A DNA stretch of 64,000 bases. Source: Gammaproteobacteria bacterium. Its GTDB lineage: Bacteria > Pseudomonadota > Gammaproteobacteria > Steroidobacterales > Steroidobacteraceae. The stretch lies in the NCBI GenBank assembly GCA_947469285.1, contig CANIOW010000007.1, positions 1 through 64,000 of the forward strand, given 5' to 3'. Positions 40,803-49,578 of the stretch are shown here, piece after piece. Below the pieces are notes generated by a model. That model was given only the letters and a program-made list of their open reading frames with translations. It ran no database searches and had not been told where the DNA came from. The position numbers and the translations under genes are program-made. Position 1 is the stretch's first letter; each line of letters opens with the position of its first letter.

Positions 40803-42938
40803 CTACTTGATCAAGCTGCCGGTGATCGCGCCGACGTCAGGGGAGAGCACGTAGATGCCGCCCTGCCCGTCTTCAGCCGCGAGCACCATGCCTTCGCTCA
40901 TGCCAAAGCGCATCTTGCGTGGCTTGAGGTTGGCGACGATGACCACCTGGCGGTCCACCAGTTGTTCTGGCGCGTAGGCCGCGCGGATCCCGGAAAAAAT
41001 AGTCCGTTCATCGGCTGTGCCATCTGCCGCAACCCCGAGACTGACGCGTAGCTTGAGTAGTTTGTCAGAGCCTTCTACCCAACTGGCTTCCAGTACCTTG
41101 GCCACGCGCAGCTCTACTTTTAGTAAGGCTTCGATGTCGATGGTCGCTGCGCTCGGGAGCTCGCGCGCTGCGGCGGGCGTGGAGACCGGTGCCTTAACGG
41201 GAGCTGCGGCAGGGGTAGGCGTGGTGGATGCAGGTGTGGCCGCTGTCGGTGAGCTGGCGCCTGTGGAGGAAGGCGCGGCGTCAGCAGTGGGTGTTACCAC
41301 GAGCAGTGCCACCACTTTCGGATCAAGACGTGTGGCCAGCGGTTCATAGGGGCGCAGGGTGTGGTCGAGTAACGGGGCATCGAGATCGCTCCAGTAGGTG
41401 ACCGGCGCTTGCAGGAAGCTCTCGGCCGCTGCCGCCATCTGCGGCATGACGGGCTTCAACAGGCCAACGAGTACGCGAAACAGGTTGATGCCTTGCGAAC
41501 AGACGGCTTGGACGTCGGCGGTCCGGGCGGGGTCCTTGGCGAGCAGCCAGGGCTTTTGCGTGTCGATGTATTGATTGGCCTTGTCGGCTAGCAGCATGAC
41601 CTCGCGTAGCGCAGCGGCGTAGTCACGGCTTTCGTAGAGCGCTGTGATCTGTGCCCGGCCGGCGACGAACTCAGCGTAGAGCGCCGGTTCCGGCAGAGCC
41701 GCTGCCAGACGGCCGTCGAAGCTGCGTGTCAGGAAGCCGGCGCAGCGGCTGCCGATATTCACCACTTTTCCGACCACCTCGGCGTTGAAACGGCTGGTGA
41801 AATCTTCGAGGCTGAGGTCGAGGTCGTCGAGACCAGCCGTGAGCTTGCTGGCGAAGTAGAAACGCAGTGCCTCGGGCGGTAACAGCTCAAGATAATGGCG
41901 TGCAGTGATAAACGTGCCACGGCTCTTCGACATCTTCTGGCCGTTCACGGTCAGGAAGCCATGCACAAACACGCCGTTCGGTGTGCGCAGGCCGGCGCCG
42001 TGTAACACGGCGGGCCAGAACAAGGCATGGAAATACAGGATGTCCTTGCCGATGAAGTGATACAGCTCGGTGTTGGCGGCGGCGGCACCCGCGGCGTCCC
42101 AGAATTCGGCGTAGGCGCTTGCCACGTCGACACCGCGCTTGGCGGACAGGGCGTCAAAACTGCCGATGTAACCGATGGGCGCGTCGAGCCAGACGTAGAA
42201 GAATTTTCCTGGTGCGCCCGGGATGCCGAAACCAAAGTAGGGCGAATCCCGGGAAATATCCCAGTCACGCAGTCCCGCGTTGAACCACTCGTCCAGTTTG
42301 TTGGCGACGCTGGTATCGACCGTGCCACTGCGGACCCATTCGCGCAGCAGTGGCTCGAAGTGCCCGAGCTGAAAGAACAGATGTTCGCTCTCGCGTTCTT
42401 CCGGCGTCGTGCCGGAAACGACCGACACGGCGTTGAGCAGCTCTGAAGGTGAATAGGTGGCGCCACACTTCTCGCAGCTGTCGCCATACTGGTCGGGAGC
42501 CGCGCAGCGTGGGCAGGTGCCCTTGACGTAACGGTCTGGCAGAAACATACCAGCCTGGGCGTCGTAGGCTTGTCGGATGGTGCGCCGGGTGATGTGTCCG
42601 GCCGCCTCTAGCGCCGCGAAGATTTGTTCGGTGCGGTGTTGGTTTTCGGGCGCATGCGTGCTGTGGAAATGGTCGAAGCCGATGCCAAAGTCAGCGAAGT
42701 CGCGGGCGTGTTCCGCTCCCACCCGCGCGATCAGCGCTTCGGGAGTGATGCCTTCTGTCTGTGCCCGCAGCATGATCGGGGTGCCGTGCGTGTCGTCGGC
42801 GCACACGTAGGTACAAGCATTGCCCGCTAGACGTTGGTGGCGCACCCAAATATCGGTTTGGGTGTACTCGACCAGATGGCCGATATGCAGCGGGCCATTG
42901 GCGTAGGGCAGGGCACTGGTGACAAGAATACGGCGCAT
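40803..42938 (-). CDS. metG: Methionyl-tRNA synthetase
   Basis: Class I synthetase for tRNA-Met. The 711 residues start [16 protein letters not shown] at 42938; HIGH is [14 protein letters not shown] is [10 protein letters not shown], and the zinc knuckle is [19 protein letters not shown]-terminal EMAP-II-like tRNA-binding domain ([16 protein letters not shown]) is joined by a long Ala/Thr/Pro-rich linker of about 50 residues, longer than usual. A 43-residue upstream frame extension is not family-like. Confidence 0.97.
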
Positions 42939-42970: not shown

Positions 42971-43621
42971 TTATGCCAAACGTAGGTGCCCAACCTTGGC
43001 CCAATAACGGGTAGCGGTCAGCGCCTGCCACTGCGTGAGCACGCCGGCGGGGCGGCGCTCCCAGCATCCCGAGCTCAGATCGTAGAGTTCTTCACCCGCG
43101 GGTGGGTGGCCAGGCGGGTGGGGCAGCGTGAATTCTGTCCCCGCGGCGGCTTCTATGAGCCAGGTGGATTCGAGCTGATAACCGCCTAACCACAGGCCCC
43201 GCAGCGTGCCGCCGCTGCTCGCCAGCGGCTGCCAGCCAGCGCTCGGGTCAAGGGTGTCGATCACTCGCCGCCTCTGGTCCGTGTCGGTCAGATGCCGCAG
43301 TTTCACCAACAGTTCGCAACCAGTCACGCTGCCGGGCGCGTGAGTCGAACCGTGTGGGCTGCGCATGAAGGTGCCGGCCGGATAGCTACCGTGTTGGTCG
43401 TGGAAGGTGCCGGAGAGCACGAGAATCTCCTCGCCCCAAGGGTGGCTATGCGCCGTGAAACTTGAGCCTGGCGCATAGGTGACGCGCGACAGACAGCGTG
43501 CCTGCTCCTGCCCATCACGCTCAATCATGCGGCGGTGGACCCCTGGCATCGGTGACGGGCTCCAGGCCAGCGTCTCCGTGTCGACATGGGCAGCGAGGCT
43601 TAGGTCGGCGTGGAGTTTCAC
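42971..43621 (-). CDS. ChrR-like cupin protein
   Basis: A 216-residue protein from GTG 43621 ([33 protein letters not shown]). It has a ChrR-type cupin: [27 protein letters not shown] with probable metal ligands HxH, E and a later H, and a second cupin-like half at about 120-216. ChrR is the anti-sigma factor for singlet-oxygen sigma-E, but the N-terminal zinc anti-sigma part is absent. It follows two PilT-like genes by 13 bp and precedes metG by 32 bp. The start codon is not marked by a strong Shine-Dalgarno. Confidence 0.75.
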
Positions 43622-43634
43622 AGCAGCACGCGCT

Positions 43635-44696
43635 TCAGGCCTGGCCTTTGTACTGCTCGAATTTCGCTTTGTTGAAGGCCTTGGCGTAGGCGTTTTTGCC
43701 GCTAATGCGCCGCGCATCCAGCAATAGCTGGAGCGCATTGTCCATGGTGCGCATGCCATGCACTGCGCCAGATTGCATGACGGTTTCGAGCTGGTCGTTC
43801 TTGCCCTGGCGGATAAGGTTGGCGACGGCGGGTGTGTTGACGAGGATCTCGAGTGCCGCGACCCGGCCAGGGGTGCCGGCGGTAGGGACCAGCTGTTGCG
43901 AGATAACACCGCGCAGACTGGTCGACAGCATAGTGCGTACCTGCGACTGCTTGTCTGCCGGGAACGCGTTGATGATGCGGTCGATGGTTGGCGCGGCGCC
44001 GTTGGTATGCAGCGTGCCCATCACTAGAATGCCGGTTTCAGCTGCGGTAACCGCGACGCTGATGGTCTCAAGGTCGCGCATTTCACCCACCAGAATGACG
44101 TCCGGGTCTTCGCGCAGGGCGCCATGCACGGCACTGGCGAAGGAGTGGGCGTGAACTCCAACTTCGCGTTGGCTGATAAGGCAGCTTTTGCGTTGGTGGA
44201 CGAATTCGATGGGGTCTTCGATGGTGAGAATATGGCCACGGATCCGCGTATTGATGTCATCAATCATTGCCGCAAGAGTGGTGCTTTTGCCGCTGCCAGT
44301 TTTTCCCGTGACCAGAATGAGGCCGTTGGTCACGCGGCACAGTGACCGTACCGCCTCTGGCATATCCAGTTCGGTCAGGGTTTTGGTCTTGCTGGGAATA
44401 GTACGGAAGACCGCACCCAGACCGCTAAGATGGCGTAGGACGTTGACGCGAAACCGGGCCACGTCGGGGATGGAATAGGCGAAGTCGGCCCCATCTTGCT
44501 GCGCCAAGCGCTCTTGGGCGCGCCGCGGCATGATTTCCAGCAGCGTCTCTTGCACGAACGCAGGATCCAGCGACGGTTCACGCAACGGCTGTAGCTCGCC
44601 GTACTGGCGCAGCCGCGGCGGGTCGCCGGCCATAAAGTGCAGGTCTGAACCGCTGCGTTTAAGTACTTCGAGCAAGTATTCGTCGATGCGTGCCAT
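43635..44696 (-). CDS. PilT-family type IV pilus retraction ATPase (copy 1)
   Basis: A 353-residue hexameric secretion ATPase. It has Walker A GKTGSGKST, Asp box LTIEDPIEFVH, Walker B DPDVILVGEMRD, and His box GTLHTN. Starting MARIDEYLLEVLKRSGSDLHFMAGDPP it aligns with PilT over its whole length, and the EDPDVILVGEMRD form is PilT- rather than PilU-like. It lies 7 bp after a second PilT-like gene. It powers pilus depolymerisation, if it is used. Confidence 0.92.
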   Translation of the reverse strand: MARIDEYLLEVLKRSGSDLHFMAGDPPRLRQYGELQPLREPSLDPAFVQETLLEIMPRRAQERLAQQDGADFAYSIPDVARFRVNVLRHLSGLGAVFRTIPSKTKTLTELDMPEAVRSLCRVTNGLILVTGKTGSGKSTTLAAMIDDINTRIRGHILTIEDPIEFVHQRKSCLISQREVGVHAHSFASAVHGALREDPDVILVGEMRDLETISVAVTAAETGILVMGTLHTNGAAPTIDRIINAFPADKQSQVRTMLSTSLRGVISQQLVPTAGTPGRVAALEILVNTPAVANLIRQGKNDQLETVMQSGAVHGMRTMDNALQLLLDARRISGKNAYAKAFNKAKFEQYKGQA

Positions 44697-44703
44697 GGTG
44701 TTC

Positions 44704-45795
44704 TCAGCTCGCCGTTTCAAATTTTGGCAGCAGTGATGGATCGGTCACGAAACGCGCGAAGGTTTTACGGTCGGTGGCGTAGTGGTAAGCGTCATCCGGG
44801 TCTATTTCTTTGGCCGTCAGTGCTGCCTGCAGGGCTTGGTCCAGCGTCTGCATGCCGTAATCACGGCCCATCTGCAGTTGGGCTGGTAACTGAAAGGTCT
44901 GGTCTGTTTGAATGAGTTTGGCGATGGCTCGGGTCATGACCAGCGTTTCGACCACAGCGCGACGTCCCTTGCCATCCGGTTTTTTCACGAGTACCTGAGT
45001 GATGACGGCGATCAGGCTTTGTCCTAGGAAGCTCTTGGTCTGTTCGCGTTCATCAATGGGCAGTGCATCGAGGATTCGGTCGATCGTCTTGACGGCACTG
45101 GTCGTGTGCAGCGTGCCGAATACCAAGTGGCCCGTTTCTGCGGCGGTCATCGCCATACGGATGGTGTCGGCATCGCGCATTTCGCCCACCAGAATGACGT
45201 CTGGATCTTCACGCATGGCGGCGCGCACACCGTCGGCGAAGGTGGGTACATGGGTGTGAAGTTCGCGTTGCACCACTTGGGATTGCTGGCTGTGGTGGAC
45301 GAATTCGATGGGGTCTTCAAGAGAAATGATGTTGACCCGTCGGGTGCGGTTGAGATGGTCGATCATCGCTGCCAGCGTAGTGCTCTTCCCCGTACCCGTT
45401 GCGCCAGTCACGAGGATCATGCCCTGATGGTGGTCTAGCAGTTGCGTGACGATGGGCGGCATGCCGAGTGAATCCAGTAACGGGACATTGTCTGGAATGG
45501 CGCGAAATACTGCGCCGACACCGGTGTCCTTACGAAACACGTTCACGCGAAAACGCCGGCCATCTTCAGCGACGTACGAGAAATCCAGGTCATGCCCTTC
45601 TTGGAACTGTGTCGCTAGGTTGGGCGTCAGTATTTCGGTGACATAGCCTTCCAGTTCGGCATGCCCGAGGTCGCGGAAACGTACCGGGAGCAAGTCGCCG
45701 GCGATGCGTAACATGGGTGGCACGCCCACGGCCAGGTGGATGTCCGAGGCTCCCTGTGCACAGCCCAGTTTCAGGAAGGCGTCGATACGTGGCAT
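44704..45795 (-). CDS. PilT-family type IV pilus retraction ATPase (copy 2)
   Basis: A 363-residue paralogue of the previous gene: Walker A GATGTGKST, Asp box ISLEDPIEFVH, Walker B DPDVILVGEMRDADT, His box GTLHTT. The C-terminus is longer (YATDRKTFARFVTDPSLLPKF). Neither copy has the PilU features (QAPDVIMIGE), so the tandem is not an ordinary pilT-pilU pair. It begins 4 bp after the HEAT-kinase stop. Canonical pilT may be elsewhere in the genome. Confidence 0.92.
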   Translation of the reverse strand: MPRIDAFLKLGCAQGASDIHLAVGVPPMLRIAGDLLPVRFRDLGHAELEGYVTEILTPNLATQFQEGHDLDFSYVAEDGRRFRVNVFRKDTGVGAVFRAIPDNVPLLDSLGMPPIVTQLLDHHQGMILVTGATGTGKSTTLAAMIDHLNRTRRVNIISLEDPIEFVHHSQQSQVVQRELHTHVPTFADGVRAAMREDPDVILVGEMRDADTIRMAMTAAETGHLVFGTLHTTSAVKTIDRILDALPIDEREQTKSFLGQSLIAVITQVLVKKPDGKGRRAVVETLVMTRAIAKLIQTDQTFQLPAQLQMGRDYGMQTLDQALQAALTAKEIDPDDAYHYATDRKTFARFVTDPSLLPKFETAS

Positions 45796-45799
45796 GGCG

Positions 45800-48328
45800 T
45801 TACTTCTGCAGCAGGAAAGTTTCTAGTGCGTCGCGCAGCTCTTCCATTGACTGTTGACGCTGGTTTTTGTCAACCGACATGGCTTTCATGACCACCTCCG
45901 AAAGACCTGCCGGCAGGTTTGGATTTAAATCAATCGGCGCGCGCGCCTTGCCTTGTACATGCTGGTACATGACGGACATGTGGTCGCCGCGACTATAGGG
46001 TGGTACGCCCGTGAGCATCTCGTAGAGGATGACACCGAGCGAGTAGATGTCAGAGCGAGGATCCACCTTCTTGCCAAGAATTTGTTCCGGGGCCATGTAC
46101 TTGGGCGAGCCGATGACATAGCCGGTCTTGGTCAGGTGGGTTTCTGATTCGCGTTGAGCGGCGGCCACCCCGAAGTCCACGATCTTGAGCAGGTCGTCCT
46201 GATTGATGAGAACGTTGGCTGGTTTCAGGTCGCGGTGAATGATGCCTACCTGGTGCGCCACCGTCATGCCGTTGGCAATATCGATTCCGAACTGTAAGGC
46301 ACGTTGGAGATTCAAGGGCTTGTCGTCACGCAGTTCCGCGCCCAGTGTGTGGCTTGGGAAGTATTCCATCGAAATGGCATACAGGCCTTGCACTGACAGG
46401 AAATCGTAGATGCGAATGACGTTTCGGTGAGTGATCTTGCGTGAGTAACGCAGTTCGTGAACGAAACGCTGCAGGACTTCTTCATCTTCGGCCACGTTGG
46501 CATTGAGGAATTTCAGAATGAGGCGCTCGTCGACCACGGTGTCTTCCATGAGCAGCACCGTGCCAAAGGCGCCCTTGCCTATTTTGTCGACGTATTTGTA
46601 GCGGCCTTCGATCATGTCGCCTGGGCGTAGAGCGGTGATGTCCAGTGTGGGCGTGCCTGCCGGCAGCGCCTTCGGCGAACGAATCGCTGCGGTGCTGCTG
46701 GTGGAGCTGGTGTCATTGCTAATGCCTGTGCCTGTGCCGATGCCGACACTGACGCCAGTACTGATCCCGGTGCTCGCGGTATTGTTGAGCTCCAGACGAA
46801 ACTTCGCGGCGCGCTGACGGCCCGTGGTGTCGTTCAGTAGGGTATGCGCCGGCTCTGCCATGCGACGCGCTTGTGCGTTGGCGATGATCATGCTCGGCGA
46901 GTAGCGCGCGTCCATCGCTTCGATGGCCTGCAGCGCGGCGTGATGTAAAGCGGGTTCGCCGGTCTGTGTGGCCAGCTGGCGAATGGTTTCACGCACGGTT
47001 TCAACGGTCGAGTCGTCGACGAGCCGTGGGAGTGCGCCGAGAGCTTCAATACGGATGGCGGGTTCGGTATGGGGCAGCTGTGCCAATACTGCGTGTAGCG
47101 CTTGTGCATCGCCGAGTTTGCCGATGGCGCGCAAGGCAGTTGGAATGCTGCGCGGCGCGCCTTCCAGCATTTCCAGTAGCCGCGGCATAGCCTTACGGTT
47201 GCCGATCTCAGCCAGAGCGTCGACTGCGCGTTCGCTGACCCACCAGTCGGTGTCGCGAGTGGCTTCGATCAGGCTGTCGACCGCACGCTCGTCCTTGGTC
47301 TGATTTAAGATTTCGATGGCAGCGCGGCGCAAGTCGTCGTCCTTATCGCGCACCAGTTGTAAGACGGCTTCAAGCACGCGCGGACCGCCGATCTTTGCTA
47401 ACGCATCGGCAGCACGAGAGCGGACCCACCAATCTGCATCTTTTATGGCCTCAAGCAGAAATTTCACGGAACGGGCATCGCCTACTTCGTTGAGGACTTC
47501 TACCGCGGCACGTCGCGCATACTCGTTTTCGTCTTTCAGCACTTCTACCAGATGCTTAACGACTTCTGGGTCGCGGGCCCGGATGAGGATTTCGATGGCT
47601 CTGTTTTGGACTTCAAGGTCGGCGTCGCGTAACAAGTTGGCGATGATGGCGACGTCAACCGGGCCGTCCATCTTGGCGAGGGCCACGAGCGCCGACTGGC
47701 GGATAAGTCGGTTCGAATCCCGTAGCTGGTGCTGCAGCGCATTACGCACGATGGGCAAGTTGAATCGCGCCACCAACTGGATGATATTCAAGCGCGCGAT
47801 TGGGTCTTTGCCTTCGAGGCGGGCTAGCAAGTCTGGCAGCGACGACTCGTCCATAATCTCGGCGATCAGTTTGAACAGCGTGTTGCGGTCGCTACCTTCT
47901 TGGCTGTAGGCGGCCTGCATCAGGTCGCGAACCTGAAAGCGCGACCGCTGGGCGGTGATGATGTCGATCACTGGGGTGCGTGGAAGGTCGTCGGCATGCA
48001 ACAGGTCGAGCAGTGCGGCGGCGGGCACGTTGCGGGCCCCTGACAGCGCCAAGGTGACGCCGGACACCACCCGTGGGTTGGGGTCGGTTAGTGCTTTGAC
48101 ATAGGCCGGAAAGCTGCGCGCGTCGGCCAGTTGGGACAGGATATCGACGAAGGCCAGCGTGGCCTTTTTTTCGCTGCGCGCTAGTTCAGCGATGACCAAG
48201 GGAACGACTGCGGGCCCAAGTCCCAAGAGTTTCGCGAGCGCAGCACGGCAGGCCGGTCGGTCCGGCTCGGCTATCTCACGAACGGTGCTCAGCCACCGTT
48301 CGGCGCGCATGGAGGTGAATAAACCCAT
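45800..48328 (-). CDS. HEAT-repeat protein with C-terminal Ser/Thr protein kinase domain
   Basis: An 842-residue cytoplasmic protein. Residues 1-500 are a long series of HEAT/PBS-lyase-like helical repeats, several with a DWWVR/S-x-RAxDALAxIG pattern. A Ser/Gly/Thr-rich linker follows (about 510-560), then a Hanks-type kinase at 570-842: GKGAFG, ATP-binding Lys 606 (LILKFL), HRDLKPAN (698-705), DFG 718-720, APEQ and SDIYSLGVILYEML. All catalytic residues are present. It is the first gene of the run into two PilT-like ATPases. Ser/Thr kinase input into pilus motors is inferred. Confidence 0.92.
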   Translation of the reverse strand: MGLFTSMRAERWLSTVREIAEPDRPACRAALAKLLGLGPAVVPLVIAELARSEKKATLAFVDILSQLADARSFPAYVKALTDPNPRVVSGVTLALSGARNVPAAALLDLLHADDLPRTPVIDIITAQRSRFQVRDLMQAAYSQEGSDRNTLFKLIAEIMDESSLPDLLARLEGKDPIARLNIIQLVARFNLPIVRNALQHQLRDSNRLIRQSALVALAKMDGPVDVAIIANLLRDADLEVQNRAIEILIRARDPEVVKHLVEVLKDENEYARRAAVEVLNEVGDARSVKFLLEAIKDADWWVRSRAADALAKIGGPRVLEAVLQLVRDKDDDLRRAAIEILNQTKDERAVDSLIEATRDTDWWVSERAVDALAEIGNRKAMPRLLEMLEGAPRSIPTALRAIGKLGDAQALHAVLAQLPHTEPAIRIEALGALPRLVDDSTVETVRETIRQLATQTGEPALHHAALQAIEAMDARYSPSMIIANAQARRMAEPAHTLLNDTTGRQRAAKFRLELNNTASTGISTGVSVGIGTGTGISNDTSSTSSTAAIRSPKALPAGTPTLDITALRPGDMIEGRYKYVDKIGKGAFGTVLLMEDTVVDERLILKFLNANVAEDEEVLQRFVHELRYSRKITHRNVIRIYDFLSVQGLYAISMEYFPSHTLGAELRDDKPLNLQRALQFGIDIANGMTVAHQVGIIHRDLKPANVLINQDDLLKIVDFGVAAAQRESETHLTKTGYVIGSPKYMAPEQILGKKVDPRSDIYSLGVILYEMLTGVPPYSRGDHMSVMYQHVQGKARAPIDLNPNLPAGLSEVVMKAMSVDKNQRQQSMEELRDALETFLLQK

Positions 48329-48468: not shown

Positions 48469-49578
48469 ATGTCTTCCAGTTCCGTCCCGCCGGGCGCGTC
48501 CCCGGACTCCGTGCTGACCGATCTGGCCGCCCGTTGCCTAGACCCCGTGATTGGCCGGCCTTTGGGTACTTTGGGCACGGTCAGTGTCATGGCCGTTGGG
48601 GAACGTTGGCGCGTGGTGGTGTCGCTGCCATTCCCGGTCGGGGGTCCGCTAGGCGGACATGCCGCGGCGTTGCGCCCGGCTTTGGCCGCGGCGCTTGTAT
48701 TGGACAAAGAGCGACTCGATCTCGAAGTCCTGGCAGAAATTCCTGTCGGTCCGGTGCAAGGCCAACTCACGCCTCTGCCGGGCATTCGCAATGTCATCGC
48801 GGTGGCTTCCGGCAAGGGTGGCGTAGGCAAGAGCACGGTGGCGGTGAATTTGGCGCTGGCCTTGGCCGCTCAAGGAGCGCGAGTTGGGCTATTGGATGCA
48901 GATATTTACGGGCCGAGCCTGCCGTTGTTGCTCGGGTTGCAGGGTGAGCGGCCGTTGTCGCGCGATGGCAAGTCATTCGAGCCGTTGCGGGCACATGGCG
49001 TGGAGGCCATCTCCATCGGGTTTCTCATTGATGCCGAACAACCCATGGTCTGGCGTGGCCCCATGGTCACTCAGGCGCTGACCCAATTGCTCAGCGACAC
49101 CCGCTGGGGCGAACTGGATTACCTGCTCGTGGACATGCCGCCAGGCACGGGCGATATCCAGCTGACCTTGGCGCAGCGGGTGCCGGTCAGTGGCGCCATC
49201 ATCGTCACCACACCGCAAGACATTGCCCTACTCGATGCCCGCAAGGGACTGAAAATGTTCGAGAAAGTCCAGGTTCCGGTGCTTGGGGTGGTGGAGAATA
49301 TGGCGTTGCATGTCTGCAGCCAGTGCGGCCATTTAGATCCCATCTTCGGCGAGGGGGGTGGCGAGCGTCTGGCGCTGGATGCGCACGTGCCCTTGCTCGG
49401 CCGGCTGCCACTGGACCGCCGCATTCGTGAGGATGCGGATGCCGGCCGACCCACGGTGGTGGCGGACCCGGAGGGAGCGGTGGCGGCGCTGTACCATGCG
49501 ACGGCACGACGTGCGGTTGCGGAACTGGCGCTACGCGCGGCGCCGGCGGCACCGGTCATCAGTTCAGACGACACGTGA
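48469..49578 (+). CDS. mrp: Fe-S cluster carrier ATPase Mrp/ApbC
   Basis: A 369-residue P-loop protein that holds and transfers Fe-S clusters. The N-terminus is a MIP18-like domain (LDPVIGRPLGTLGTVSVM), the ATPase has ASGKGGVGKSTVAVNLA, and the cluster cysteines are in HVCSQCGHLDPIFGEGGG. It is followed by dcd after 39 bp. In Pseudomonas-like genomes metG, mrp and dcd adjoin; here the kinase-PilT cluster separates metG from mrp. Confidence 0.95.
   Translation: MSSSSVPPGASPDSVLTDLAARCLDPVIGRPLGTLGTVSVMAVGERWRVVVSLPFPVGGPLGGHAAALRPALAAALVLDKERLDLEVLAEIPVGPVQGQLTPLPGIRNVIAVASGKGGVGKSTVAVNLALALAAQGARVGLLDADIYGPSLPLLLGLQGERPLSRDGKSFEPLRAHGVEAISIGFLIDAEQPMVWRGPMVTQALTQLLSDTRWGELDYLLVDMPPGTGDIQLTLAQRVPVSGAIIVTTPQDIALLDARKGLKMFEKVQVPVLGVVENMALHVCSQCGHLDPIFGEGGGERLALDAHVPLLGRLPLDRRIREDADAGRPTVVADPEGAVAALYHATARRAVAELALRAAPAAPVISSDDT

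Follow-up and report, generated by a model that had tools for sequence, protein, structure and literature searches.

Bacteria move and sense surfaces with type IV pili, and the described controls of the pilus motor are mainly second messengers and two-component systems. Eukaryote-like Ser/Thr kinases also enter this picture, since SpkA and SpkB affect type IV pilus motility in Synechocystis; comparing by description only, we know of neither a HEAT arm nor a PilT pair of its own for either kinase. Outside the pilus field, the PpkA–PppA–Fha proteins of type VI secretion presumably form a comparable set of kinase, PP2C phosphatase and FHA protein. As for the motors themselves, PilU works only through PilT, and the C-terminal motif AIRNLIRE, proposed to face the cytoplasm, is conserved in PilT and not found in PilU (PMC6762196). 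Extra PilT paralogues that alter pilus dynamics are also described, namely PilT2 of Neisseria and the multiple PilTs of Geobacter (PMC10790696, PMC5065972), and phosphorylation is not mentioned in the Neisseria PilT2 paper. In the open-licence literature searched, there is no report of a direct Ser/Thr kinase input to a pilus motor, nor any description of a kinase–PilT–PilT system under searches for PilT phosphorylation, for PilT together with FHA, PP2C or HEAT, and for Hanks-type kinases together with twitching, although such absence is no proof. The switching of pilus retraction motors is poorly known, and the unit analysed here provides a concrete and genetically separable candidate.

The locus and its kinase

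The locus lies in the window, that is, the whole stretch of 64,000 nucleotides that was analysed. Pfam and NCBIfam profiles were used to assign the domains of its genes, and the relevant features are the following.

40803..42938, minus strand: metG, methionyl-tRNA synthetase; constant downstream neighbour inside the order only
42971..43621, minus strand: ChrR-cupin-like protein, GTG start, 216 aa; PF12973 at 2.3e-31
43635..44696, minus strand: PilT-B, PilT/PilU-family ATPase, 353 aa; sister clade of PilT-A
44704..45795, minus strand: PilT-A, PilT/PilU-family ATPase, 363 aa; own clade
45800..48328, minus strand: HEAT-repeat Ser/Thr kinase, 842 aa; HEAT_2 at 3.1e-51 and Pkinase at 3.8e-49
48469..49578, plus strand: mrp-type P-loop ATPase; constant divergent upstream neighbour inside the order only

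The four minus-strand genes from kinase to cupin are separated by 4, 7 and 13 bp, exactly as the original prediction had them, and the start of metG (42938) lies 32 bp past the cupin gene. The same prediction took the last gene for a ChrR-like cupin, with which the PF12973 match agrees, and counted it as a member of the unit, which does not hold. The cupin gene is present in the window's genus alone (L009 and L010, from the same genomes as L204 and L205) and is, therefore, a late addition to the locus. A cupin as fourth component was ruled out by this genus-restricted distribution, and the protein probably stands outside the core system. The core is made up of three genes, which encode the HEAT-repeat/PknB-type kinase, PilT-A and PilT-B.

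The kinase combines five HEAT_2 stretches with a complete Pkinase domain, arranged as a HEAT solenoid (residues ~1-490), a disordered linker (~491-561; residues 480-560 show no conservation among the orthologues) and a PknB-like catalytic domain (~570-840). All the catalytic residues are in place (GxGxFG 584-589, K606, E625, HRD 698-700, DFG 718-720 and APE 746-748) and are near-invariant in an alignment of 95 orthologues. In the AlphaFold2 model, the HEAT arm forms a helical solenoid over residues 1-490 with pLDDT mostly >90, while the kinase domain is of medium confidence and has its best structural matches in PknB. With the PASTA-kinase profile NF033483 (PknB/Stk1), the score of 285 bits falls short of the cut-off (450), and only the kinase part matches. 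Profiles, alignment and model agree with the long HEAT N-terminus and the complete catalytic residues that had been predicted, and the protein can be classed from its sequence as an intact, PknB-like Hanks-type Ser/Thr kinase. Moreover, two segments of the HEAT arm, RRAAVEVLN and DWWVR, are near-invariant within residues 260-372 of the 95 orthologues, and this conserved ridge could be a candidate partner site. Nevertheless, part of the DxDWWVR pattern is what HEAT_2 and alphaRep repeats share in general, and the conservation of DWWVR in the arm is no proof of such a site.

Conservation inside and outside the order

Inside the window's order, a scan of genome contigs recovered 80 loci, mainly from Steroidobacteraceae and relatives. 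Within contig reach, the order mrp (divergent), HEAT-kinase, PilT-A, PilT-B and metG was found in 80/80 named loci, and a strong kinase match was obtained in ~50 of 59 relatives. The unit had been proposed to be an inserted module splitting metG from mrp. These two genes do flank it; however, the same arrangement runs throughout the order and, therefore, the unit is not a recent insertion here, so that an insertion between metG and mrp was ruled out for this lineage. Cultured strains that carry the unit are Peristeroidobacter soli, P. agariperforans, Steroidobacter gossypii and Povalibacter uvarum.

Two side observations concern these order-level loci. The identity of MetG to the window's protein is two-peaked among them (~44-47% and 53-80%), a pattern that the adjoining genes do not share. 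In addition, the record CALQLF020000003.1 (L010) has an actinobacterium, Candidatus Planktophila lacus, in its title and carries a gammaproteobacterial locus with a kinase 73-74% identical to that of the window; its title or binning is probably wrong.

Outside the order, distribution was followed in a family-even class sample of 369 genomes, with thresholds of E <= 1e-60 for the kinase and E <= 1e-105 for PilT-A orthologues; the counts rest on draft assemblies. The kinase was found in 51/369 genomes, which represent 24 families once the divergent family f169 is left out. Kinase, PilT-A and PilT-B are contiguous in 36/40 loci of other families, where the ATPases are ~53-68% identical and the gap from kinase to PilT-A has a median of 3.5 bp. 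None of these 40 loci lies between mrp and metG, and their settings vary by family, with riboflavin/nusB-type genes in one group and a penicillin-binding-protein or NlpC/P60 gene elsewhere. Among the four non-contiguous loci, one stops at a contig edge (L186) and another is interrupted by a stretch of N (L191), whereas in the remaining two, both of one family (G220 and G421), kinase and PilT pair are both kept, each on its own contig and next to kilobases of unrelated DNA. An apparent loss of the kinase domain or of the PilT pair in genome G340 was ruled out, as it coincides with an assembly gap of N. Since the three genes are found together in unrelated genomic places in other families, they form a real and portable unit.

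Co-occurrence leads in the same direction. PilT-A orthologues are present in 45/369 class genomes, and 45/45 of them have the kinase, with 0 exceptions (Fisher p ~1e-51, a value uncorrected for shared ancestry and descriptive only). The six kinase genomes without PilT-A comprise three of family f169 and three fragmented or gapped assemblies. In the search with PilT-B, kinase genomes gave 417-480 bits and kinase-negative genomes, picked for the four or five PilT-family genes that most of them contain, gave at most 345 bits, which correspond to their canonical PilT. Even within a single genus, one genome has the trio (G101) and another is devoid of it (G241). A phylum-wide sample gave 0 carriers among 398 other genomes, the genomes listed being highly complete and of the same class, so that this figure has little bearing on other classes. 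The physical tie between a Hanks-type kinase and PilT-like ATPases, which was the centre of the original prediction, is therefore upheld: the kinase–PilT–PilT order is conserved inside the order and beyond it, the neighbours are kept together, and their co-occurrence is essentially perfect. A shared function of the three genes is strongly supported.

The f169 genomes deserve a separate mention. They contain a divergent HEAT-type kinase (L189 and L187 in G321 and G211, respectively, and also G416), with 39-46% identity in the kinase domain, whose gene follows a ClpB-like gene in the loci examined and is not accompanied by any PilT pair. As carriers of a divergent HEAT-kinase, these three genomes, apparent counter-examples to the co-occurrence, were set aside.

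Two PilT paralogue clades

Both ATPases belong to the PilT/PilU family TIGR01420, whose cut-off of 319 bits they exceed with scores of 414 and 441, and the best PilT structure match reaches 326 bits vs 154 for DotB. In a tree of 292 sequences, built without labels and labelled by best BLAST match, each of the four groups PilT-A, PilT-B, PilT and PilU is monophyletic. The first two form sister clades (support 1.0) placed beside PilT (0.77), outside both the PilT clade and the PilU (PilU1) clade, and thereby define two new clades of PilT paralogues. The Walker A Lys, the Walker B Glu and the Asp-box Glu/Asp are invariant in 124 PilT-A and 119 PilT-B sequences. Both His-box histidines are kept in PilT-A (124/124), while the first of them is replaced in PilT-B (119/119; Ile in 116, Val in 3), and Met stands for Thr just before this position in 86/119 PilT-B sequences. 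In PilB, an apparently equivalent Thr lies at the subunit interface with a His-box histidine on either side, and the HIS box has been suggested as a mediator of inter-chain cooperativity (PMC5424180). This asymmetry, with one complete site and one altered interface, suggests that PilT-A and PilT-B may work together.

The AIRNLIRE motif is absent from both proteins, reading AI(A/G)KLIx(T/S) in PilT-A and AVANLIRQ in PilT-B. The Arg of AIR is replaced by Ala, Gly or Ser in every PilT-A sequence and in almost all those of PilT-B, whereas it is kept in 21/21 PilT, and the pair might, therefore, not drive retraction. The description of both proteins as PilT-like and not PilU-like is correct as regards their grouping nearer PilT; however, it fails to the extent that the hallmark motif of PilT is missing from both.

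In the window's genome, the pair brings the number of PilT-family ATPases to five, the others being encoded on another contig (G000:C21; L004:1492-3707 and L007:1360-2526), where a canonical pilT precedes pilU and one more PilU-like gene. PilQ and PilB/PilC-type genes are also present and, thus, a type IV pilus on which an extra pair could act is likely available. Nearly all carriers likewise have a higher-scoring canonical PilT-family protein.

A candidate kinase-controlled motor pair

We favour, with a probability of roughly 0.55, the reading that the kinase, PilT-A and PilT-B constitute one regulatory unit, in which an accessory motor pair of the type IV pilus is regulated by phosphorylation. 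PilT-A and PilT-B would pair up in mixed or stacked hexamers, as PilU acts through PilT, and would act at the base of the pilus, where they would add to canonical PilT/PilU a further motor for retraction or gating. The kinase may be kept on the pair by its HEAT solenoid, and the pair would be switched by Ser/Thr phosphorylation through the kinase and a PP2C phosphatase, and FHA proteins, where encoded nearby, may read the phosphorylated form. Information could flow either way, from the kinase to the motor or from the state of the motor to the kinase and FHA outputs. Phosphorylation of PilT-A/PilT-B by the kinase, a complex of the products and pilus dynamics as the output are what we infer. Against motor control, sharing an operon need not mean that kinase and substrate are encoded together, and the window's order keeps the trio without adjoining genes for DUF6812, FHA or PP2C.

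Such neighbours occur at distant loci. Directly upstream of the kinase, most loci outside the order have a gene for a DUF6812-family protein (~157 aa), which was detected in 36 genomes of the class sample, 36/36 kinase-positive (e.g., L163:3779-4261 and L151:6306-6773), and in neither the window's genome nor its order. Its relatives in the Protein Data Bank are chance-level matches only and no paper on DUF6812 was found in the open-licence literature searched, so that the neighbourhood of the trio supplies a first context for this family. Within the stretch covered around each trio, an FHA-domain gene is present in 23/40 distant loci and a PP2C gene in 10/40. After its domain, the FHA protein near distant trios has a conserved EPTMFIKAE...ETQ segment, which we take to recall the phosphorylated ETT motif of GarA/OdhI. 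The window's genome also contains, on a separate contig, a second Ser/Thr kinase operon (L214:5779-10011; G000:C5), in which an 879-aa kinase, apparently with membrane segments, is joined by a PP2C phosphatase and by a double-FHA relative of the FHA protein that accompanies distant trios.

The neighbouring genes bear on a reverse flow of information, in which binding or ATP turnover of PilT-A/B at the pilus base would activate the kinase and, through it, FHA proteins, FHA-cyclase or FHA-HD-GYP, making the unit a surface sensor and not a motor controller. Genes of this output type flank distant trios (class III cyclase-FHA in 7, FHA-GAF-HD-GYP in 6 and FHA in 16 of 40), and a pair without AIRNLIRE fits a role other than retraction. 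However, neither these outputs nor a PP2C gene stand beside the trio in any of 96 loci of the window's order, where the trio is kept anyway, and we consider this possibility rather unlikely. A role away from the pilus, with PilT-A/B powering another hexameric-ATPase process, such as a secretion-like or polar complex, under regulation by the kinase, appears improbable. The PilT/VirB11 superfamily does include DotB-type ATPases with other jobs, the trio is adjoined by no pilus gene, and both the AIRNLIRE arginine lost from the two proteins and the altered His box of PilT-B would suit such a role; nevertheless, the best matches of the pair are PilT proteins, carriers nearly always retain a canonical PilT-family protein, pilQ occurs in the window's genome along with pilB/pilC-type genes, and no other machinery gene is recurrent in the flanks of the trio. 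Finally, that the three genes are mere neighbours by descent without shared function is highly improbable and already contradicted: vertical inheritance along with mrp and metG would explain the arrangement inside the order, but not the intact trio in unrelated settings outside it, its absence as a set from kinase-negative genomes or the retention of kinase and pair where they are unlinked.

Returning to the favoured motor-control reading, co-inheritance over about two dozen families points to an undescribed route of pilus control, and cultured carriers make the question open to gene removal. In its broadest form, we put at about even odds that this is a previously undescribed system, widespread in Gammaproteobacteria, that controls or senses type IV pilus dynamics. 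A Hanks-type kinase on a HEAT scaffold and its dedicated PilT-family pair, joined in many lineages by DUF6812, FHA and PP2C proteins, would do so with the motor itself as either the target of Ser/Thr phosphorylation or the source of the signal.

Compared with PilT/PilU of type IVa pili, the pair shares the TIGR01420 family, the same length, the intact Walker A, Walker B glutamate and Asp box, and the encoding of two paralogues side by side. It differs in forming separate sister clades, in being additional to canonical pilT-pilU, in having a kinase in the same operon, in the lack of AIRNLIRE from both members and in the loss of the first His-box histidine from PilT-B. PilT2 of Neisseria and the PilTs of Geobacter resemble PilT-A/B in being extra paralogues. 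Lastly, the kinase has in common with Hanks kinases of the PknB/Stk1 type that operate with PP2C and FHA proteins, such as PknB with GarA, a PknB-like catalytic domain and, at part of the distant loci, nearby PP2C and FHA genes; however, a HEAT solenoid replaces PASTA or any other sensor in this kinase, and its partner genes encode PilT-like motors.
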